A stretch of 39,079 nt of DNA. Origin: Cyanobacteria bacterium SIG32 (GTDB lineage: Bacteria > Cyanobacteriota > Vampirovibrionia > Gastranaerophilales > Gastranaerophilaceae). Location of the stretch: NCBI GenBank assembly GCA_015152455.1, contig SUTY01000006.1, positions 1 through 39,079 of the forward strand, read 5' to 3'. The notes under the pieces are model-generated. The model made no database searches. It was not told the origin of the DNA and worked only from the letters and a program-made list of their open reading frames with translations. The position numbers and the translations under genes are program-made. The stretch's first letter is position 1. The number at the start of each line of letters is the position of its first letter. Of this stretch, positions 1-39,079 are shown one piece after another.

Positions 1-752
1 ATTCAACTACTGCTGACTTTGTTGAAGAATTATCTAAACACATTAAAATTGTTAAAACTTGTTCTAGTGATAAACTTACTGATTGTTTTACATCAGAAAT
101 TTTAACTACTGCAGATCCTGTTGAAACAAGTAAGTTAAAAGCATCTAGAAATCTTTATTCAACAACAGATTATGGTACTGAAACTATTGGTGTTCAATTT
201 GCAGACGGTGTAACAGCTTTAATTGCATACAATCCAAATGCAACTCAAGATCCATTATCTAACCAAGTTGTTAGATTAACTGGTTCTAAAGATAGTGTTG
301 GGTTATCTACTGATGCTATTTCTATCCTGTATGATGTTTCAGGTGGTAAGACACCAAACCAAATGGACACAGGTAAAGACATAAGAGGGATTAATATTGC
401 GATTAAAACAGGTGCTCCTTTCAAAAATCTTGGGAAAATATCAACACCAGTAGATTGTTCAAGAACTGCCTCAACAGCATACTGTGGACCAACACCCTCA
501 CGCTATTCATCTGACTACTGGGCAGGTGCCAAGAGAGCTTGTGCAGAAGAAGGCATGCATCTACCTACCATTGAAGAACTACGTGACCTCTATGCAAGAA
601 AGGGTGAAGAAGGAATTCCTACTTCCGGCTGGTTCTGGTCTTCGTCAGAGGACGGTGCCTACGACGCGTGGGTACTCCACTTTGGCTATGGGGATGAGGG
701 CGGCTACAACAAGGACCACAGCAGCAATTACGTGTTGTGCTTAGGTAATTAA
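1..752 (+). CDS. Prepilin-like surface protein with variable lectin-like C-terminus (5' partial)
   Basis: The reading frame is open from base 3 to the TAA at 750-752; the true start lies upstream of the window. An internal ATG at 363 is not the start, because upstream codons align with the complete paralogue at 30944-31957: both contain TADFVEELSKHIKIVKTC, a TALIAYN-like block, QDPLSNQVVR and a DAISILYDV block. By that homology the missing N-terminus would be a type IV prepilin leader. The C-terminus has the ADYWAGAK-like and FWSSSE...AW signatures of DUF1566/C-type-lectin-like domains and ends YVLCLGN. The last ~100 bases are strikingly GC-rich (35 of 60 bases in 661-720 are G or C), and 17 of 30 codons in 651-740 end in C, against 2 of 30 at the start of the partial frame. 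This resembles a DGR variable region. Probably exported and surface displayed. Confidence 0.85.
   Translation, partial: STTADFVEELSKHIKIVKTCSSDKLTDCFTSEILTTADPVETSKLKASRNLYSTTDYGTETIGVQFADGVTALIAYNPNATQDPLSNQVVRLTGSKDSVGLSTDAISILYDVSGGKTPNQMDTGKDIRGINIAIKTGAPFKNLGKISTPVDCSRTASTAYCGPTPSRYSSDYWAGAKRACAEEGMHLPTIEELRDLYARKGEEGIPTSGWFWSSSEDGAYDAWVLHFGYGDEGGYNKDHSSNYVLCLGN
651..749 (+). other. Candidate DGR-type variable region at the 3' end of the prepilin-like gene
   Basis: Codons are dominated by NNC (TAC, GAC, CAC, GGC, AGC, AAC), as expected if AAC codons in an A-rich template were mutated at adenines. The segment encodes the end of a lectin-like fold and sits at the very 3' end of the gene, the usual place for a variable region. 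It ends in TGCTTAGGTAATTAA, nearly identical to the end of the gene at 38328 (TGCTTAGGTGATTAA), which could be a shared invariant 3' anchor. No reverse transcriptase or template repeat is visible in the window, so this is inference. Confidence 0.5.
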
Positions 753-775: not shown

Positions 776-812
776 CCTCGGCCCTTTCAAGGGGCCGAGG
801 GGAATATTCCCC
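776..812. repeat. GC-rich hairpin followed by a 14-bp perfect palindrome
   Basis: CCTCGGCCC (776-784) pairs with GGGCCGAGG (792-800) over a 7-base loop. Overlapping its end is the perfect palindrome GGGGAATATTCCCC (799-812). No T-tract follows, and a separate, better terminator lies at 840-861, so this is not simply a terminator. It starts 24 bases after the stop codon of the prepilin-like gene. In studied DGRs a GC-rich hairpin/cruciform just downstream of the variable region helps target recognition, and the placement here is compatible with that. Confidence 0.7.
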
Positions 813-1086: not shown

Positions 1087-1218
1087 TGATTATCCTCTTT
1101 CCAACCTGTATATTTATATAAAGAATTTCTTCCTGTGAAAATTGCCTTTTTTAAAGGTTCGATTGTAACATTTGTTTACATAAAATAAATTCCTTGTATA
1201 GTGTACATTTCCACCTAC

Positions 1219-1247
1219 TTGACGACTGTTTTTTTTAGGACTAAAAT
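1219..1247 (+). promoter_or_regulatory. Sigma-70-type promoter of the Ehr-like operon
   Basis: TTGACG (1219-1224), a 17-base spacer, TAAAAT (1242-1247). Transcription would begin near 1254, giving a leader of about 57 bases before the ATG at 1311. Confidence 0.7.
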
Positions 1248-1310
1248 TATCTTGCAAACAGAAATTTGCAGGAATTTACCCACATTTATTCAGGCAAGGG
1301 AAGAGATTTT

Positions 1311-3278
1311 ATGGAATATTTTTTTATAGGCATAGCGATTTTGTTTTTGAGTGGAATTATTTCCGACTTCTTTAAGAATAAGATATCTGTACTGTCAGGA
1401 TTAGCAATAATTTCTGCAATATTAACAATCATTCCATCTGTAAATGTTTTGTTAACAAGCGAAAGCCTTATTTATTCATACAACTTTAACCAATTATTTG
1501 GAGCAGTAAACTTTGTCATAGATCCGTTGTCTGCATTTTTTATTGTGGTAATTGCGATTATGAGTTTGGTATCACTTATTTATTCTAAAGGATATCTAAA
1601 ACCTTATATCGAAAAAGGCAAAAATATTAAAGCTCATATTGTATTTTTACCGATTTTAATGGCTTCAATGATGGCAGTTGTCACTTGTCAAAATGCGTTG
1701 ATGTTTTTGATTTGTTGGGAAATTATGTCATTGAGTTCATTTTTCTTGGTTATTTTTGAACACGAGAAAAAAGAAGTTCGACGTGCTGCGATTAAATATT
1801 TAGTATTTATGCACTTGTCAGTTCTGTTTATTATGGTTGCATTTGCACTATTATCGCTCAAATCAGGCAGCTTTGATTTTACGTCATTTATGTCTGCAAT
1901 GCATGGTGATAAACATTTTACAAATACGATTTTCTTATTATTATTTGTCGGATTTGGTATGAAAGCTGGATTTGTACCATTCCATAACTGGTTGCCTGAT
2001 GCTCACCCAGCTGCACCGAGTCATGTAAGTGCAATGATGTCAGGTATTATGATTAAAACAGGTATTTATGGGATTTTAAGATTACTTTCATTAGTTGATG
2101 TTCCATCAAAATCAATCTGTTTTGCAGTTTTGATAATTTCTGTTGTATCTGCTTTGTATGGGCTTTTATATGCTATTACGCAACATGACGTGAAAAGATT
2201 TTTGGCATATTCATCAATAGAAAACATTGGTATTATAGGTATAAGTATTTCTGTTGGTATGATTGGGTTATCATACGGAAATGATATTGTGGCACTTTTA
2301 GGTTTTGTGGGTGCTCTTTTACATATATTAAACCACTCAATATTTAAGCAGTTGTTATTCTTAGCTGCAGGTGCAGTTTATAATAAAACCCACACACGCC
2401 ATGTTGAATTATTAGGCGGATTAATAAAATCAATGCCTAAGACTGCAACAGGATTTTTAATAGGTGCAATTGCGATTTGTGGATTGCCACCTTTTAACGG
2501 TTTTGTTAGTGAATTTATAATTTATTTTGGTATGTTTAAAGCATTATCAATTCACCATTTTGTATCAGTAATTATGATTTTGTTTGCCATTTCAAGTTTG
2601 GCGCTTGTTGGTACAATGGCGGTTTTATGTTTTTCAAAAGCGTTCAGTATAATCTTTTTGGGCGCACCTAGAAGTGAACAAGCAAAAAATGTAAATTCTG
2701 ACGTTGACAATTCAATGCTTATTCCTATGGGATTTTTGGCAGTTTTGGCGCTAAGCATTGGTTTATTCCCACAATTTATGTTCAAATTTGCTCTGAATCC
2801 TGTGAGTGTATTTATCAACGTTGATTATTCTACAGTTGTTGAACCGTTGCACATTTTGCAATTGATTTCATTATTTGCACTTGGTTTTGTTGTAGTTTTG
2901 TCTTTAATGATTTTATTAAAAATGAAATTAACAAAAGGCAGAATTGAGCTACACGAAACTTGGGGTTGTGGTTATAACCAACCTAACAACCATATGCAAT
3001 ATACTGCATCATCTTATGCAAGTCCGTTTTTGTCTATGCTAAAACCTTTATTTAAAAAAGTATTTGATATAGAAAAACCAAGACGATTATTTCCAAGAAG
3101 TGCTCACTTTAGTTTGAAAGTTGAAGATATTGAAGAAGCATATATTATTAATCCAATTTTAAAATATGATGAAATGTTTTTATCAAAATTTGAATCTATG
3201 CAAAGCGGAAATATTCAATCTTATATTAAGTATGGTTTGATATTTCTTGTTGTGGTAGTTATAGGAAGTCTGTTATAG
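1311..3278 (+). CDS. Hydrogenase-4/Ehr complex membrane subunit HyfB-like (proton pump, NuoL family)
   Basis: A 655-aa integral membrane protein of the antiporter-like NuoL/HyfB family, probably coupling electron transfer to H+ or Na+ movement. Conserved features are a membrane glutamate (E137, CWEIMS), the pump lysine in GFGMKAGFVPFHNWLPDAHP (K218), the YSSIENIGI helix and HSIFKQLLFLAAG. The tail has HETWGCGYNQP, a signature of HyfB-type rather than NuoL-type subunits. The ATG at 1311 is chosen because AAGGGAAGAG lies 6-15 bases upstream; an in-frame TTG at 1266 has no such site. It is the first gene of a six-gene operon, 2 bases from the next. Function in detail depends on the unusual large subunit at 6287. 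Confidence 0.92.
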   Translation: MEYFFIGIAILFLSGIISDFFKNKISVLSGLAIISAILTIIPSVNVLLTSESLIYSYNFNQLFGAVNFVIDPLSAFFIVVIAIMSLVSLIYSKGYLKPYIEKGKNIKAHIVFLPILMASMMAVVTCQNALMFLICWEIMSLSSFFLVIFEHEKKEVRRAAIKYLVFMHLSVLFIMVAFALLSLKSGSFDFTSFMSAMHGDKHFTNTIFLLLFVGFGMKAGFVPFHNWLPDAHPAAPSHVSAMMSGIMIKTGIYGILRLLSLVDVPSKSICFAVLIISVVSALYGLLYAITQHDVKRFLAYSSIENIGIIGISISVGMIGLSYGNDIVALLGFVGALLHILNHSIFKQLLFLAAGAVYNKTHTRHVELLGGLIKSMPKTATGFLIGAIAICGLPPFNGFVSEFIIYFGMFKALSIHHFVSVIMILFAISSLALVGTMAVLCFSKAFSIIFLGAPRSEQAKNVNSDVDNSMLIPMGFLAVLALSIGLFPQFMFKFALNPVSVFINVDYSTVVEPLHILQLISLFALGFVVVLSLMILLKMKLTKGRIELHETWGCGYNQPNNHMQYTASSYASPFLSMLKPLFKKVFDIEKPRRLFPRSAHFSLKVEDIEEAYIINPILKYDEMFLSKFESMQSGNIQSYIKYGLIFLVVVVIGSLL

Positions 3279-3280
3279 GA

Positions 3281-4201
3281 ATGATTATGATTAAACTTAT
3301 AAACTTAATAATACTTTTATTTGTCCCATTTTTAATGGCAGGTGTAATCAAAAAGACAAAATCTTTTTGGGGGGGACGAAAAGGCCCATCAATTTTGCAA
3401 CCCTGGTATGATTTCGTTAAACTTGTAAAAAAAGATTTTGTAATCAGTAAAACAACTTCAGGTGTGTTTAGAATAGCACCGCTTGTGCAGATTACATCAG
3501 TTATTTTTGCAGCATTATTTATTCCATTGGCTGCAGGTTCAGCGTTGATTAATGTACAGGCAGGACTTATCATTTTTGCTTATACATTAAGTTTGGGTAA
3601 GTTCATGTCATTGATTTCAGCTATGGATACTGGAAGCAGTTTTGAAGGTATGGGAGCATCTCGTGAGGCTTGTTTTACTTCAATTGTAGAGCCTGCATTT
3701 TTTATGGTAATTGCTTCTGTTATGGCTTTAACAGGGAATTATACATTTGATAGTTTAAAAAATATTTTGGCATCTGCTGGAAGTTATGGAATTTTAATTA
3801 TAGTTTTTGCAGTTGTAGTTTTATTTTTAATGATATTGATTGAAGGTTCAAGAGTTCCTGTTGACGATCCTGCAACTCACCTTGAATTAACTATGATTCA
3901 CGAAGTTATGATTTTGGATAATTCTGGAAGTGATTTAGCTTTGTTTACTTGGGCAAACGGAATTAAAATGTTGTTAATTGCGTCATTAATTTCATATATG
4001 GTGCTTCCTCAGAATTTGTGTGTAGGTTTGTCAATCGCTTATTATTTATTGATAATGTTTGCATTATCTGTAATTATTGGCACAGTTGAGTCTTGTATGG
4101 CAAGAATAAGAATGTCGCACGTATTTGAATTTATCTTTATTATGAGTTCTTTGGCGCTTGTTGTGCTTTCGTTAGTTGTAGCAAGGATGTTTGGAGGTTA
4201 G
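3281..4201 (+). CDS. Hydrogenase-4/Ehr complex membrane anchor subunit HyfC-like (NuoH family)
   Basis: A 306-aa membrane protein of the NuoH/HycD/HyfC family that connects the peripheral arm with the ion-pumping subunits. Diagnostic stretches are GGRKGPSILQPWYDFVKL near the N-terminus and EGSRVPVDDPATHLELTMIH in the middle, carrying the acidic residues of the quinone-site-equivalent loop. The PVDDPATHLELTMIHE version is typical of group 4 hydrogenases rather than of complex I. Two starts are possible, 3281 and 3287; AGGA at 3277-3280 is better spaced for 3287 (MIKLINL). The stop is one base before the next ATG. Confidence 0.93.
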   Translation: MIMIKLINLIILLFVPFLMAGVIKKTKSFWGGRKGPSILQPWYDFVKLVKKDFVISKTTSGVFRIAPLVQITSVIFAALFIPLAAGSALINVQAGLIIFAYTLSLGKFMSLISAMDTGSSFEGMGASREACFTSIVEPAFFMVIASVMALTGNYTFDSLKNILASAGSYGILIIVFAVVVLFLMILIEGSRVPVDDPATHLELTMIHEVMILDNSGSDLALFTWANGIKMLLIASLISYMVLPQNLCVGLSIAYYLLIMFALSVIIGTVESCMARIRMSHVFEFIFIMSSLALVVLSLVVARMFGG

Positions 4202-4202
4202 G

Positions 4203-4853
4203 ATGGTAAACGGTTTTATTATACTTTTCGGACTTACAATGTTATATTTGGCTGCAACAAGTAGAATTATTGCACATATAAGAGTGTTAATTGTGCAGGG
4301 CTTCTTATTGTTCTTAATATGTATGAGTGGTTCAGAACATATGAACTGGTTAAATATTGCGTTTTTAACAATTGAAACTTTGGTTGTTAAATCAATTGTT
4401 ATTCCTGCGTTTTTGTACAGAGTTTTGAGAAAAACACATTCTAATAGGGACGTAGCGGCAAATATTCCGCACTTTTATTGCCTTGTAATTGCAAGCATTA
4501 TTTTGTTGGCAGGATTTTTATTATCAAATTATTATATTTCGTCTATAAAGTTGATTTCACCAATGTTTTTTGGAGTTTCTGCCGCAACTATTGTTATAAG
4601 TTTGTGGCTTATTACAATTAAACATAAAATTATTTCTAATGTTATTGAATTTATTACAATGGAAAACGGCATATTTTTACTTTCGCTTTCTGTTGCAAAA
4701 GAGATGCCAATGCTTGTGAATATGGGCGTATTGTTAGACGTGTTTATCGCCGTTTACATTTTGGGATTATTTGTAAATGAAATAAATAAAGAATTTAATG
4801 ACTTAGAAGTTTCGCACTTATCTGATTTGAAGGACTACGAATACAATGATTAA
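4203..4853 (+). CDS. Hydrogenase-4/Ehr complex subunit HyfE-like (NuoK family)
   Basis: A 216-aa, strongly hydrophobic protein with about six to seven membrane segments. The position between HyfC-like and HyfF-like genes, the size and the segment ENGIFLLSLSVAKEMPMLVN match HyfE, whose C-terminal part resembles NuoK. The start is ATG 4203, with GGAGG (4193-4197) five bases upstream; an in-frame TTG at 4191 overlaps that site and is unlikely. The C-terminus overlaps the next gene by 8 bases, suggesting translational coupling. Likely part of the membrane arm. Confidence 0.85.
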   Translation: MVNGFIILFGLTMLYLAATSRIIAHIRVLIVQGFLLFLICMSGSEHMNWLNIAFLTIETLVVKSIVIPAFLYRVLRKTHSNRDVAANIPHFYCLVIASIILLAGFLLSNYYISSIKLISPMFFGVSAATIVISLWLITIKHKIISNVIEFITMENGIFLLSLSVAKEMPMLVNMGVLLDVFIAVYILGLFVNEINKEFNDLEVSHLSDLKDYEYND

Positions 4854-6276
4854 TATACTTTTAATATTTCCTATAATTGCGTGTGTGTTAGTTTTGTTAG
4901 TAAAAAATAAAACTTTTGACACTTGGATTGTTAATTTATATGCTGTAATGCATTTGGTAATCAGTTCAATGTTGGCTTTAGGATATGGGAAAAATAATTT
5001 TACACCGTATTTTGAAATTGACGGAACTAATGCGTTGTTTTTACTGGTGTTGTCAGTAGTATTTTTAATGGTAACTATTTACAACAATGGTTATATTAAA
5101 ACTTTTGATTTTTCACCTAATAAAATAAGTCGTTATTCATTTATGATTTTGATATTTGTTTTATCAATGACAGGTACATTGTTGAGTACTGATTTAGGCT
5201 TGGCGTGGATTTTAATTGAGGCAACAACCTTATCAAGTGCGTATTTGATTTATTTCAACAAAACCAAACATTCAATTGAAGCGGCTTGGAAATATGTATT
5301 TATTTGTTCAATAGGTATTGCTTTAGCATTTGTTGGAATTATTTTGTTAAATATTTCAACTGGATCAGTAAACACTTTAAATTTTGCTGAATTATATAAA
5401 TTTGCACCAACATTTGATGATGGCTGGCTGAAAATAGCTTTTGTGTTTATGTTGTTTGGCTTTGGTGCAAAAATGGGTTTGGCACCCGGACATTTTTGGT
5501 TGCCTGATGCACACGCAGAAGCCCCTTCTCCAATTTCAGCATTGTTGTCAGCTGCGTTATTGAATTCCGCTTTTCTTGTAATTGTTAGAGTTTTTAAAAT
5601 TGTTGAGATTGCAGGTTGCGATGAATACCCAAGATTTATGTTGCTATTAATGGGATTTATTTCATTATTTGTAACGGCTGTTTTTGTTTATCATATTAAA
5701 AATTACAAACGTATGTTGGCTTACTCATCAATAGAAAACATGGGGATTTTGGCTATAGGAACTGCTTTAGGTGGTATTGGTTATTTTGCAGTTGTTTTAC
5801 ATCTAATCGGACACTCTTTGGCTAAGGCTTCATTTTTCTTGACTGCAGGTAATATCTTAGAATTATACGGCACTAAAAGGGTTAAATCTGTAAACGGTGT
5901 TATTAATGCTGATGGTAAAACAGGTTGGTTGTGGGTACTTTCTTGTTTAGGTATCTGTGCTTTCCCAACTTCGGTTTTATTTATAAGTGAATTTTTAATT
6001 GTAAAAGTTTTAATAACTCAACATCACTACTTGTTGTGTGGATTATTTGTTCTTTTATTAACTATAATTTTGTATGGTATTTCCAGAGTTGTTGTAAAAA
6101 CTGCTTTTGGGAATGTTAGTGAAGACAAAATTAAATCTATCGAGTCAAACAAAAAGAAAATAACAATGTGTATGTATATTCCGCAATTTATAATGTTGGC
6201 TATTGTATTTTGCTTAGGAGTTTACGTACCGTCATTTTTGAATGAAATTATATCAGCAGCGATTGTTGGATTTTAA
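4846..6276 (+). CDS. Hydrogenase-4/Ehr complex membrane subunit HyfF-like (proton pump, NuoN/NuoM family)
   Basis: A 476-aa second antiporter-like subunit. It keeps a membrane glutamate (E125 in ILIEATTLSSAYLIYF), the pump lysine K209 in GAKMGLAPGHFWLPDAHAEA, the YSSIENMGI helix and the IGHSLAKASFFLTAG helix. The ATEATT/IEATTLSS style and WLPDAHAEAPSPISALLS block are those of HyfF. Having both HyfB-like and HyfF-like pumps gives two ion channels in the complex. It overlaps the HyfE-like gene by 8 bases and is followed after 10 bases by the large subunit. Confidence 0.92.
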   Translation: MINILLIFPIIACVLVLLVKNKTFDTWIVNLYAVMHLVISSMLALGYGKNNFTPYFEIDGTNALFLLVLSVVFLMVTIYNNGYIKTFDFSPNKISRYSFMILIFVLSMTGTLLSTDLGLAWILIEATTLSSAYLIYFNKTKHSIEAAWKYVFICSIGIALAFVGIILLNISTGSVNTLNFAELYKFAPTFDDGWLKIAFVFMLFGFGAKMGLAPGHFWLPDAHAEAPSPISALLSAALLNSAFLVIVRVFKIVEIAGCDEYPRFMLLLMGFISLFVTAVFVYHIKNYKRMLAYSSIENMGILAIGTALGGIGYFAVVLHLIGHSLAKASFFLTAGNILELYGTKRVKSVNGVINADGKTGWLWVLSCLGICAFPTSVLFISEFLIVKVLITQHHYLLCGLFVLLLTIILYGISRVVVKTAFGNVSEDKIKSIESNKKKITMCMYIPQFIMLAIVFCLGVYVPSFLNEIISAAIVGF

Positions 6277-6286
6277 AGGATAAAAT

Positions 6287-7753
6287 ATGGATAAATGGAT
6301 TAAAACTAAAAATAACACAAAATTAAATTTATCAGATATTCCTGTTTTAAAAATTGAGGAATTAAGAGATGGCATAATTGAATTAAATCATAGACCAATA
6401 GGCTTTTTCGGTAAAAATTGGGGCTTTGGTTTAACAAGATTATTTGTAATTCTTGCAGATGATGAAAACGGTGATTTATATGTATCCTCTGCAATGTTTA
6501 GTGCAGAACAAAAATCTTATGAATCTTTAACTCAGATAATACCAGCGTTCCATATTTTTGAAAGAGAATTTTATGAACAGTTTGGTATTGAACCATTAAA
6601 TCATCCTTGGTTGAAACCAGTTAGGCAAAATCAAGATGAATATAAATTCTTTGAAATGCAAGGCGAAGAAGTCCACCAAGTTGCGGTTGGTCCTATTCAC
6701 GCAGGTGTAATTGAACCTGGGCATTTTAGATTCATGTGTAACGGTGAAACTGTTTATCACTTAGAAATTATGTTAGGTTATCAGCATAGAGGTGTTGAAG
6801 AATTAATGGTTAAATCTCCATCAAATCAGCTTGCTGAATCTATTTGTGGAGATAGTGTTATTGCATATAATACGGCTTATTCAAATATAATGGAAATATT
6901 AAAAGGTATTGAAATTTCAAATAAAGCTCAATTGATCAGAAAAGCAGCTTTAGAAATGGAAAGAATGGCAATCCATATAGGTGATTTAGGTGCTATTTCA
7001 GGTGATATTGCCTATTTGATGGGTGCATCCGTTTTTGGCGCTACAAGAACTTTGGTTATTAATTCAATGTTGGAATTTAGTGGTAGTCGTTTTGGTAGAG
7101 GGTTAATTACTGTCGGTGGTGTAAATTATGATTTCACTCCAGAAAAAAGAAATCATGTTTTGGAAACTTTATCAAAAGTTATCAAAGACGTTGAAAGAAT
7201 GACGAATACTATGGTTAAAAATTCTACTGTAATGTCAAGGTTAGAAAAAACTGGTACAGTAAGTGAAGAACGCGCAAAAGAAGCAGGATTAGTCGGAATG
7301 GCGGCTAAGGCCTCTGGAGTTGATTTAGATTCTCGTTTTGATTTTCCTGACAAATGGATGGAGAAATTAGAATTTACAAAACGAGGTTTTAAAGCAACAG
7401 GTGATGTTAATGCAAGATTTAAGTTGCGTTATAAGGAAATTTTGCAATCATATTCAATGATTAAAAAGATTTTTGCAAAACTTGCTGAATATGAAAATGA
7501 ACCACTTTTTGTTGATACAAATATGAATTTAGAGAAAGATGCTTTTGCTATTTCAATAGTTGAAGGATGGCGTGGTGAAGTTGTGCATATAGCATTAACT
7601 GACGATAGTGGTAATTTATCTCACTACAAAATTAAAGATCCATCATTTAATAATTGGTATGGATTAGCCTTGGCAGTCAGAAATAATGGCGTTTCTGATT
7701 TTCCATTATGTAATAAGAGTTTTGATTTGTCCTATGCAGGAAATGATTTATAA
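6287..7753 (+). CDS. Ehr-type large subunit (HyfG/NuoCD-like) lacking the NiFe cysteines
   Basis: A 488-aa fusion of an N-terminal NuoC-like domain (FHIFEREFYEQFGIEPLNHP) and a C-terminal NuoD/hydrogenase large-subunit domain (HLEIMLGYQHRGVEELM). Group 4 NiFe hydrogenases bind nickel through two CxxC pairs. Here the first motif reads C187-G-D-S190, and the second, expected as DPCxxC, reads DPS453-F-N-N456. Only one of the four ligand cysteines remains, so a NiFe centre is not expected. This matches the energy-converting-hydrogenase-related (Ehr) group, whose substrate is not established. AAAGGA precedes the ATG. A Hyf hydrogenase assignment would be wrong on active-site grounds. Confidence 0.88.
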   Translation: MDKWIKTKNNTKLNLSDIPVLKIEELRDGIIELNHRPIGFFGKNWGFGLTRLFVILADDENGDLYVSSAMFSAEQKSYESLTQIIPAFHIFEREFYEQFGIEPLNHPWLKPVRQNQDEYKFFEMQGEEVHQVAVGPIHAGVIEPGHFRFMCNGETVYHLEIMLGYQHRGVEELMVKSPSNQLAESICGDSVIAYNTAYSNIMEILKGIEISNKAQLIRKAALEMERMAIHIGDLGAISGDIAYLMGASVFGATRTLVINSMLEFSGSRFGRGLITVGGVNYDFTPEKRNHVLETLSKVIKDVERMTNTMVKNSTVMSRLEKTGTVSEERAKEAGLVGMAAKASGVDLDSRFDFPDKWMEKLEFTKRGFKATGDVNARFKLRYKEILQSYSMIKKIFAKLAEYENEPLFVDTNMNLEKDAFAISIVEGWRGEVVHIALTDDSGNLSHYKIKDPSFNNWYGLALAVRNNGVSDFPLCNKSFDLSYAGNDL

Positions 7754-7763
7754 GGAATAAATT

Positions 7764-8501
7764 ATGTTTGATACATTAAAAGCAAGATATTATCAAGGAA
7801 AACAATATATTAAAGATATTCAAAAAGCTCAGATGCGTGAAGAATTTCGAGGATTTCCTATTCTATTTGAAGGCGAAAGTTGTGATGAGAATATTTGTCC
7901 AACTGGTGCATTAAAAACAAATCCTTTGTCTATTGATATGGGCAAATGTACTTTTTGTGGGGCGTGTGAGAGAGCTTCTAAGGCTATTCAATTCACTAAT
8001 GGGTATAAATTAACATCAAGTGATAGAAACAAGCTCATAGTAACCCCTGAGGTGTCTTACGAATATTATTTAAAAACTGCAGTCGAAGCAAAAGAAGAAA
8101 TCGTAAAAACATTTGGTCATTCTTTGAAGTTTAGACAAGTTTCAGCTGCCGGTTGTAATGGTTGCGAAATGGAATTGAATGCTTGTTCTAACGTAAACTT
8201 TGATATGGGAAGATATGGAATAGACTTTGTGGCATCACCTCGACATGCTGATGGCATAGTTATTACGGGTCCAATTTCTGAAAATATGGCGTACGCTTTG
8301 GAAGATTGTTATAAATCTGTTCCAAATCCTAAATTGGTAGTTTTATGTGGTGCGTGTGCGATTTCTGGTGGTGTATTCCAAAATAGTGCCAAATTAAATA
8401 GAGAATTCTTAGAAAAATATCCGATTGATTTGTATATCCCAGGTTGTCCAGTCCACCCTCTCACGTTTATCAATGGAATTTTAAGTTACATAAGAAAATA
8501 A
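7764..8501 (+). CDS. Ehr/hydrogenase small subunit with fused ferredoxin domain (HyfH-HyfI/NuoI-NuoB-like)
   Basis: A 245-aa protein. Residues ~35-75 carry a short ferredoxin-like domain (C40, C45 followed by P, then C62xxC65xxC68), enough for one [4Fe-4S] cluster. Residues ~120-245 are NuoB/HyfI-like, with proximal-cluster cysteines C131 and C134 (AAGCNGCEMEL), C198 (CGACAISGG) and C228 (IPGCPVHP). In E. coli these are separate proteins (HyfH and HyfI). The intact proximal cluster shows that electron transfer to the large subunit is retained although the NiFe site is gone. GGAATAAATT precedes the ATG. Last gene of the operon; ferredoxin is the likely electron partner (inference). Confidence 0.88.
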   Translation: MFDTLKARYYQGKQYIKDIQKAQMREEFRGFPILFEGESCDENICPTGALKTNPLSIDMGKCTFCGACERASKAIQFTNGYKLTSSDRNKLIVTPEVSYEYYLKTAVEAKEEIVKTFGHSLKFRQVSAAGCNGCEMELNACSNVNFDMGRYGIDFVASPRHADGIVITGPISENMAYALEDCYKSVPNPKLVVLCGACAISGGVFQNSAKLNREFLEKYPIDLYIPGCPVHPLTFINGILSYIRK

Positions 8502-30943: not shown

Positions 30944-31957
30944 TTAATTATCTACACAAATTATGTTGTATTGGTCATACTTATAATAAGTACTTACCGC
31001 TCCTCGCCCAAAAGCTATACCCCAAGCCACCTTAGCACTGTATTCTGATGCAGTCCAATACCAGTTTGAAGCTGGCACACCAAAAGTTGTACGGTTATTG
31101 TAAATACCACAAAGAGTATTTGCTGCAGCATCAGCAGGACAATCTCCATAGCTTGTACGTCCAGCACTTGGTAAACTCATTCCTATATCAGCACATTTTT
31201 TCTTAGCACCTGCCCAATAATCTGTTGCATTAGCTGAAGATGTTGCACAATATTTATAATCCTTTCCAGTTGTATCTGAACAATCAACTGGCTTATAATT
31301 TAAACCCATATTTGCAATACAAAGACCATTTGAACAAACTGTAGGTACAATATTTAGTTCTACATTCAAACCTTTGATATCTTTACCTGTACCATATTCA
31401 TTTGGAGATTTTAAACCATTTACATCATACAGAATTGATATCGCATCTGTACTGACAGCAACACTATCACGATTACCAGTTATTCGCACAACCTGGTTAG
31501 ATAATGGATCTTGAATAACATTTTTATTGTATGCAATTAATGCACTGGTACCATCACCAAACATTACCCCCATAGTTTCAGTATCATAATCTCCATCAAA
31601 ATAAAGATTTTTTGCAGTCTTTAAATCTGAAGTCTTTACAGGATCTGCCCCTGTCGCTATTTCAGCAATAAAACAATCCGTTAAATTATTCTTATCACAA
31701 GTTTTAACAATTTTAATATGTTTAGACAATTCTTCAACAAAATCAGCCGTTGAATTATAACCAGCTAAAGAGGACGTGCTATTCATCATAGCCAAAGCCT
31801 CACCAAGCCTTCTATTAAAAACAGATGAGGCAGTGTTCCAAGATTTTTGGTTATAGTCTGCCATCAATGTTGGAATAGTCATTGTAGCAACTACACCAAT
31901 AATCGCTAAAGTTATCAATACTTCTGCCAGAGTAAATGCATGTTTATTTGTTTTCAT
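30944..31957 (-). CDS. Type IV prepilin-like protein with DUF1566-type C-terminus (337 aa, complete)
   Basis: The N-terminus MKTNKHA/FTLAEVLITLAIIGVVA is a prepilin leader: cleavage expected before F8, E at mature position 5, then one hydrophobic helix. The middle (TADFVEELSKHIKIVKTC; TSALIAYN; QDPLSNQVVRITGN; DAISILYDV) aligns with the partial paralogue at the window start. The C-terminus has DYWAGAKKKC and WYWTASE...AWGIAF, the DUF1566/lectin-like pattern. Unlike the two partial paralogues, its last 100 bases are not GC-rich (22 of 60 in 30961-31020). It has its own TTGACT/TATAAT promoter overlapped by repeats shared with the divergent HTH gene. Likely a pilus-tip or surface-displayed minor pilin. 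Confidence 0.9.
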   Translation of the reverse strand: MKTNKHAFTLAEVLITLAIIGVVATMTIPTLMADYNQKSWNTASSVFNRRLGEALAMMNSTSSLAGYNSTADFVEELSKHIKIVKTCDKNNLTDCFIAEIATGADPVKTSDLKTAKNLYFDGDYDTETMGVMFGDGTSALIAYNKNVIQDPLSNQVVRITGNRDSVAVSTDAISILYDVNGLKSPNEYGTGKDIKGLNVELNIVPTVCSNGLCIANMGLNYKPVDCSDTTGKDYKYCATSSANATDYWAGAKKKCADIGMSLPSAGRTSYGDCPADAAANTLCGIYNNRTTFGVPASNWYWTASEYSAKVAWGIAFGRGAVSTYYKYDQYNIICVDN

Positions 31958-38266: not shown

Positions 38267-38298
38267 AATAAAAAAAGAGGCTATTAAATAGCCTCTTT
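38267..38298 (-). terminator. Intrinsic terminator of the third prepilin-like gene
   Basis: AAAGAGGCTA (38274-38283), loop TTAAA, TAGCCTCTTT (38289-38298). On the minus strand the stem is followed by a T-rich run (TTTT to 38267). It stands just upstream of the pnp promoter. Confidence 0.85.
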
Positions 38299-38327: not shown

Positions 38328-39079
38328 TTAATCACCTAAGCAAACCGCCCACAGACTGCTGTAGCTGCGGTTGCCGTCGTACCATTCCGTACCGCCGGAG
38401 TAGAAGTAGCGGGCGTATGCGGCGTACTTATAAGAAGAATCCTCCTCGCCTGACAAAACCAAGAACGAAGGGCTAGGAAAGCCTAGAGAAGATCCTTTAG
38501 TTGGGTTGAATGCGATAGTATTACCATCATAGATTGAGCCGTTGCTGGTTTTTTCTCCAACAATGTCAGTGTCATATAAATAATTTGCTATTGTAGCTAA
38601 ATCTGACATCTGTGCCATTTTAGATGTACCACCACATGTTTCTGCTGCTTTTGCAAAGTAGTCGTCGCCTGGCCAGCAGTAGTCAAGTCCATATTTTTGC
38701 ATGTATGCTTGGTCTTCTGCGTCTGTTGATGTATATTTACTATGCTTGCAAGCGTTCCATGTGTGTGCTGAATTAGCTTGGAACGGCATACCAAAACATG
38801 TACCGTCTATTTCAAACGCACAAGATGAACCACCTACTTTGGTTACGTTTCCATTAGCACGTAGGTCTTTACCACTCGTATTAGGTGTTTTGTATCCTGT
38901 TGTATCATATAGAATAGCCAAACAATCTCCACCTGTAATTGTATTTGAATAAGGATCTTGAGAACATTTTGGATTATATGCAATTAGTGCAGTAGTACCA
39001 TTAGCAAATTGTGTACCAATAATTTCTGTACCCCATTCATCTTGTCCAAAGTGTTTAGCTTTTTTAACTTTTGTCATGT
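38328..39079 (-). CDS. Prepilin-like surface protein with variable lectin-like C-terminus (5' partial)
   Basis: The frame is open to the window edge; the ATG at 39077 is internal, since the flanking residues align with the other two paralogues (IIGTQFANGTTALIAYNPK against TIGVQFADGVTALIAYNPN at the window start). Further matches are QDPYSN and LYDTTGYKTPNTSGKD. It has a longer, cysteine-rich middle (CAFEIDGTCFGMPF; ACKHSKYTS; DYCWPGDDYFAKAAETC) that replaces the shorter DYWAGAK region of the others. The C-terminus is GC-rich (38 of 60 bases in 38341-38400) with 18 of 30 codons ending in C in 38349-38438, and ends AVCLGD. The N-terminal prepilin leader is expected beyond the window. Followed by a good terminator. 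Confidence 0.85.
   Translation of the reverse strand, partial: MTKVKKAKHFGQDEWGTEIIGTQFANGTTALIAYNPKCSQDPYSNTITGGDCLAILYDTTGYKTPNTSGKDLRANGNVTKVGGSSCAFEIDGTCFGMPFQANSAHTWNACKHSKYTSTDAEDQAYMQKYGLDYCWPGDDYFAKAAETCGGTSKMAQMSDLATIANYLYDTDIVGEKTSNGSIYDGNTIAFNPTKGSSLGFPSPSFLVLSGEEDSSYKYAAYARYFYSGGTEWYDGNRSYSSLWAVCLGD
38331..38438 (-). other. Candidate DGR-type variable region at the 3' end of the third prepilin-like gene
   Basis: TAC, GCC, CGC, TTC, TCC, GGC, GAC, AAC and AGC dominate in a genome that otherwise prefers A/T-ending codons. The tail TGCTTAGGTGATTAA matches the first prepilin-like gene (TGCTTAGGTAATTAA). Both carry AAC-derived-looking codons at aligned places near NxxxSS. Reverse transcriptase and template repeat are not in the window. 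Confidence 0.5.

Follow-up and report, generated by a model that had tools for sequence, protein, structure and literature searches.

The 3'-terminal tail of the first gene in the window, by which we mean the whole 39,079-nt stretch of DNA analysed here (contig C29 of a draft genome of 1.71 Mb in ninety-eight contigs, 90 per cent complete), is very probably the variable region (VR) of a trans-acting diversity-generating retroelement (DGR) whose targets, as read from sequence, form a dispersed type IV prepilin-like family. Its pattern and its homology show the gene to be a DGR-type target, with a tail of the VR type; a complete DGR for such prepilin-like targets was recognizable in relatives only. 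The relevant features of the window are these:

3-752, plus strand: target gene, prepilin-like with a C-terminal Lcl_C (DUF1566-type, C-type-lectin-like) domain; open frame of 249 aa whose 5' end lies beyond the contig edge
651-731, plus strand: hypervariable core of the VR; conserved flanks, variable columns at the adenines of relatives' templates, codon-position bias reversed
732-749, plus strand: invariant 3' end of the VR, GTGTTGTGCTTAGGTAAT; IMH-equivalent position, with a presumed role
776-800, plus strand: strong inverted repeat just 3' of the VR; 12-nt arms, 1-nt spacer
30944-31957, minus strand: prepilin-family paralogue, a stable relative; N_methyl (PF07963) above cut-off, tail without an NNC block
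38274-38298, minus strand: inverted repeat 3' of the second VR, with a run of T after it on this strand; 12-nt perfect arms
38328-39077, minus strand: second predicted target gene, a prepilin-family paralogue of another subfamily; frame of 249 aa with its 5' end beyond the contig edge, matched by the prepilin query (E 1.7e-14)
38352-38441, minus strand: hypervariable core of VR family 2, in the tail of the second target gene

Elsewhere in the window, the genes at 1266-8501 form a run that, from their translations, resembles the operon of a membrane-bound group 4 [NiFe] hydrogenase (formate-hydrogenlyase-like).

Variable tails in a prepilin-like gene family

The initial annotation had singled out the tail for its composition, and a recount reproduced its figures exactly: 35 of the 60 bases in 661-720 are G or C, and 17 of the 30 codons in 651-740 end in C, against two of thirty at the start of the frame. 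Any thirty-codon stretch of this frame ending before base 630 holds at most eight such codons, and 35 or more G+C is reached by 0.27 per cent of the 60-mers in the window (mean 19.3). The block is not a chance fluctuation, because an NNC-codon block with other residues recurs at the 3' ends of at least nine paralogues.

A search of the draft genome with the window protein returned fifty-four matching places, nine of them paralogues that are 74-82 per cent identical over most of its length. The family bears out the description of the protein as prepilin-like: paralogues with an intact 5' end show AFTLAEVLITLAIIG, and the prepilin-type segment in them reads AFTLAEVLITLAIIGVVAAMTIPTL. N_methyl scores above cut-off in the C25 paralogue, as it does in the stable relative in the window, and below it in C36. 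Homologues of prepilin peptidase (PF01478) and of the assembly ATPase (PF00437) are also present above cut-off. The class III signal or N-methylation motif was found in paralogues, and for the window gene only by way of a possible overlap. The truncation of that gene is due to the contig edge alone, and contig C71 overlaps the first 127 bases of the window exactly and contributes a prepilin N-terminus. C71 is thus a candidate for the upstream part of the gene, not a proven partner, because 127 bases resembles an assembler k-mer and contig C33 seems to begin at the same node.

At the other end of the protein, Lcl_C matched the C-terminal eighty residues weakly (E 4e-6, under the curated cut-off). 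The protein model is weak overall (mean pLDDT 54), and we used the C-terminal eighty residues alone, where pLDDT is 73-87; their best structural match was the C-terminal domain of Lcl (8q4e, Foldseek E 1.7e-4). This match supports a C-type-lectin-like fold for the tail.

Aligned tails of the paralogues share near-invariant words, TGGTCTTCGTCAGAG before the core and GTGTTGTGCKTAGG after it, while the core differs residue by residue with its third bases largely fixed. Upstream, core, and downstream identities are 96, 68, and 96 per cent between C36 and C66, and 87, 73, and 100 per cent between the window gene (C29) and C36. Among seven paralogues, pairwise differences per codon at positions 1, 2, and 3 were 0.11, 0.11, and 0.24 upstream, as against 0.44, 0.49, and 0.18 in the core. 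Such a reversal of codon positions is expected of mutagenesis of AAY codons and not of ordinary divergence. The window gene has a hypervariable 3'-terminal segment between conserved flanks with its changes at codon positions 1 and 2, and a stretch homologous to template repeats extends over about 636-749, around the core. GTGTTGTGCKTAGGT occurs with zero mismatches at nine sites in the genome, every one a 3' end of a gene of the prepilin-like family, and was absent genome-wide outside these nine gene ends with up to two mismatches allowed.

The variable columns also coincide with the adenines of templates found in related genomes. Among the seven paralogues they fall at 39 of 49 adenines and 24 of 70 other bases of the template from genome G003 (P = 8e-7), and in the family 2 core, compared across five paralogues (the second window gene and four others), at 34 of 49 template adenines against 15 of 85 other bases (P = 2.7e-9), both P values being calculated as if columns were independent and with relatives' templates rather than one from the genome itself. 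Enrichment at adenines in the first window family was similar with the templates of G014 and G032. The more divergent members C49, C33, and C25 show more differences at other bases.

The initial annotation had missed both the window's second variable tail and how large the gene family is. Family 1 has about ten members in this genome, and family 2 with its relatives has seven or eight, the most divergent members being less certain. Two genes in the window and about fifteen elsewhere, or about seventeen in all, are likely targets. Pfam gave no match on the second target gene, 38328-39077. The paralogue at 30944-31957 does not, as far as its sequence goes, appear to be a DGR target.

The inverted repeat at 776-800 is common to C29, C36, and C66 (about -21 to -25 kcal/mol). 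In the Bordetella phage BPP-1 a cruciform or hairpin lies downstream of the VR (PMC3240598), and the repeats at 776-800 and 38274-38298 may be cruciforms of this kind or plain terminators. An inverted repeat, AAAATGGTAAACCATTTT, was seen within about ten bases past the stop codon at L032, L035, L037, and L039 and also on C17 and C69, following targets from two subfamilies.

Reverse transcriptases, Avd and the template

The initial annotation had found neither a reverse transcriptase (RT) nor a template in the window and had proposed a remote system. That view holds, with an RT on contig C80 and a fragment of a bAvd gene on C5. The genome encodes two RTs, on C80 and C9. IGNLTSQ in place of QGxxSP marks the RTs of DGRs. 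The C80 RT (L001:1321-2439) has IGNLTSQ and YVDD motifs, as in the RTs of complete cassettes; IGNLTSQ is invariant in eight aligned RTs, several of which adjoin a template and Avd. Its identity to the RTs of relatives is 50-59 per cent, and several of those RTs belong to full cassettes. Models of defence RTs matched the RTs as generic RTs only, and we rejected a defence identity. The bAvd fragment (C5:12-212) is truncated by the contig end and scored 37.4 bits (E 3.8e-9), just below the 40-bit cut-off. A DGR-type RT and an Avd accessory are thus both represented in the genome, which agrees, together with the flanks, the bias towards codon positions 1 and 2, and the placing of variable sites at relatives' template adenines, with the original call of a DGR variable region.

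The C80 RT lies near the contig end, with a lytic transglycosylase gene on one side and a toxin-antitoxin-like pair on the other, and neither Avd nor a template was found beside it. RT loci L143 and L144, from named genomes, are 61-65 per cent identical to it. The RT relatives also point to the lineage, as one of the two closest bears the name Candidatus Gastranaerophilales. In the available sequence, no template adjoined the RT in its closest relatives, G015, L143, and L144. Because it and these relatives are without an adjacent template, the C80 RT may have lost its template or may serve something else. The RTs of C80, L144, L143, and G015:C22 form a group without adjacent Avd or template in available sequence and may belong to unlinked DGRs; in G015 the RT is divided between two frames. 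A palindromic MITE-like repeat, CCACCCACCCCCAGCCCCTCCCTAG..., lies at the end of C80 (L001:3150-3281), directly after the C5 Avd fragment (L088:215-345), and again further along C5.

The search for a template in the draft genome, which the annotation had called for along with that for an RT, did not find a homologue of the window tail outside the target genes: the tail, the adenine-restored consensus, and the invariant 3' motif all matched gene tails only. A short, weak match was seen at C45:22611 (E 0.001, 38 bases). C66:3145 was rejected as a chance match, and C45:20747 and C45:20773 as the remnant of a target gene. This remnant (L013:1422-1661, on C45) joins a prepilin-gene leader to a variable-tail-like end and looks like a target gene in decay. 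When viral contigs were scanned twice for patterns, six matches came up, five of them within a single unrelated phage protein rich in glycine and the sixth in a short chance frame, and a template-like pattern gave none.

As the search yielded no template for these tails, the unit that diversifies them must lie at a distance or in a gap of the assembly. A template could be hidden from a draft that is 90 per cent complete, since templates resemble VRs and would break the assembly graph, which seems to have happened at the prepilin genes. By analogy with a cassette on contig C8 of G014, described below, this template might sit immediately beyond the end of C5.

Complete cassettes in relatives

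We predicted a template blind, by writing A at the variable sites of the tails in this genome, and searched it against sixteen genomes of the genus. Only two matches lay outside the genome itself, at G003:C118:862-973 (E 1e-15) and G014:C19:22895-23007 (E 1e-13). Each is an AAC-rich, adenine-rich repeat with an Avd gene on one side and a DGR-type RT on the other. Templates are thus present in G003 and G014, and a further one in G032. Compared with twenty VRs, a lower bound on their number, the template on C19 of G014 was changed at 365 of 836 adenines and 82 of 1595 other bases. The prepilin segment is in frame with eighteen of these twenty VRs; the remaining two have frames truncated at contig starts. 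A prepilin-family gene also lies 3' of the RT on this contig. For the second template of G014, on C8, at least six similar VRs were found, and for that of G032 four. On G014:C8 the RT is 59 per cent identical to the C80 RT and converges with Avd, upstream of which lies the template.

From these cassettes a mechanism can be proposed. RNA from the template repeat would be copied by the error-prone DGR RT with its Avd partner, template adenines would be miscopied in the cDNA, and the cDNA would then replace the 3' end of a target gene, altering exposed residues of the Lcl/C-type-lectin-like domain. In the window's own genome, the C80 RT and the C5 Avd would serve VRs of the window type, with the missing template in an assembly gap. 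The target proteins would be exported and assembled by pilus machinery, and their tips may bind changing surface ligands, in adhesion or in the recognition of phages or partners.

The strongest competitor to this account holds that the tails are fossil VRs, ancestral DGR targets that lost their template and whose tails are now frozen. It departs from our reading on present activity only, so that the confidence given to each overlaps, and we consider it unlikely. The template is absent from the assembly, the C80 RT is orphaned, and Treponema denticola is known to have leftover targets without an RT or a template (PMC4891356). Yet C36 and C66 differ at one-third of their core bases with flanks that are 96 per cent identical, and diversification therefore continued after or during a recent duplication. 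All frames are moreover open, the RT and the Avd fragment persist, and contig breaks at repeats can hide a template.

Processes without a retroelement, either recombination or gene conversion among paralogues or diversifying selection, could draw on a large paralogous family with shared flanks. They predict neither variable sites at the template adenines of other genomes nor a fixed third-position C, and relatives of the window genes adjoin DGR cassettes with adenine-limited differences; we regard them as very improbable. More doubtful again is a role for the prophage-like DGR on C9 (L002, about 1129-2900, minus strand), an intact-looking element in the same genome with an RT, a template, and a VR in a neighbouring phage-like gene. 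Its template and VR differ at 12 of 18 adenines and 0 of 99 other bases, but the template (GGCTTCGCTCGTTTTGG...) does not visibly resemble 636-749, was not found by searches with the window tail, and has its own VR in that phage-like gene, which makes diversification of the window gene by it scarcely credible. High G+C and C-ending codons in an AT-rich genome might also suggest a local island of foreign DNA or of unusual codon usage with no diversification at all. The comparison of paralogues already refutes this, the block differing residue by residue while its neighbours are conserved, and we give it next to no weight.

Known systems and the reach of DGRs

The trans-acting DGR that we favour resembles the BPP-1 system (Mtd, Avd, Brt; PMC3240598) in its adenine-limited differences, its bAvd-type gene, a 3'-terminal VR in a lectin-like fold, and, at the window VRs, a downstream inverted repeat. 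BPP-1 has one tail-fibre gene beside its RT, whereas here the targets are chromosomal, prepilin-like, and spread over many contigs; the window hairpins also do not show the GRNA loop of BPP-1 and are maybe terminators. The DGR of T. denticola shares the arrangement of one RT and template with several paralogous targets genome-wide, but those number two to seven, many of them predicted lipoproteins (PMC4891356), compared with at least twenty, mostly prepilin-like, for one template in G014. In cyanobacterial DGRs (PMC7517822, a paper that makes no mention of Melainabacteria) there are also remote CLec paralogues with template homology near their 3' ends, though these remote variable proteins are mostly predicted to be cytosolic, whereas the family here has prepilin N-termini.

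In gut bacteria, DGRs are reported to diversify pilus-associated tip proteins of Bacteroides, the type V tip pilins (Macadangdang et al. 2024, as cited in PMC12632263); type V pili are of the lipoprotein kind, unrelated to the type IV prepilins seen here. Legionella Lcl (PDB 8q4e; PF07603), whose C-terminal domain best matched the modelled tail domain, is a collagen-like adhesin, and we saw no sign of its being a DGR target. One survey (PMC6642488) refers to putative pilin structures with a link to DUF1566 and describes highly repetitive templates, with few A-to-N changes in its leading example. DGRs, remote targets, DUF1566/Lcl_C targets, and pilus-tip targets of another pilus type are therefore already known. 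Searches of the literature, with few subscription journals covered, returned nothing on DGRs together with prepilin, Melainabacteria, or Gastranaerophil, and within this partial coverage we came across no earlier account of type IV prepilin-like targets forming a large, dispersed family in this lineage.

Surveys of DGRs on metagenome contigs miss remote targets by their own account (PMC8144416). Because one template serves at least twenty remote genes in a relative and about seventeen targets are likely here, cassette-based searches would badly underestimate the reach of DGRs in this lineage. On balance we lean towards a broader picture for this gut-associated, Gastranaerophilales-like lineage, in which trans-acting DGRs diversify in parallel dozens of dispersed prepilin-like tip proteins, with several template families and stable paralogues, giving a pilus-tip repertoire much larger than that of single-target DGRs. 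Should the proteins prove to be pilus tips, the surface filaments of these uncultured gut bacteria would vary in binding through a retroelement-driven system.
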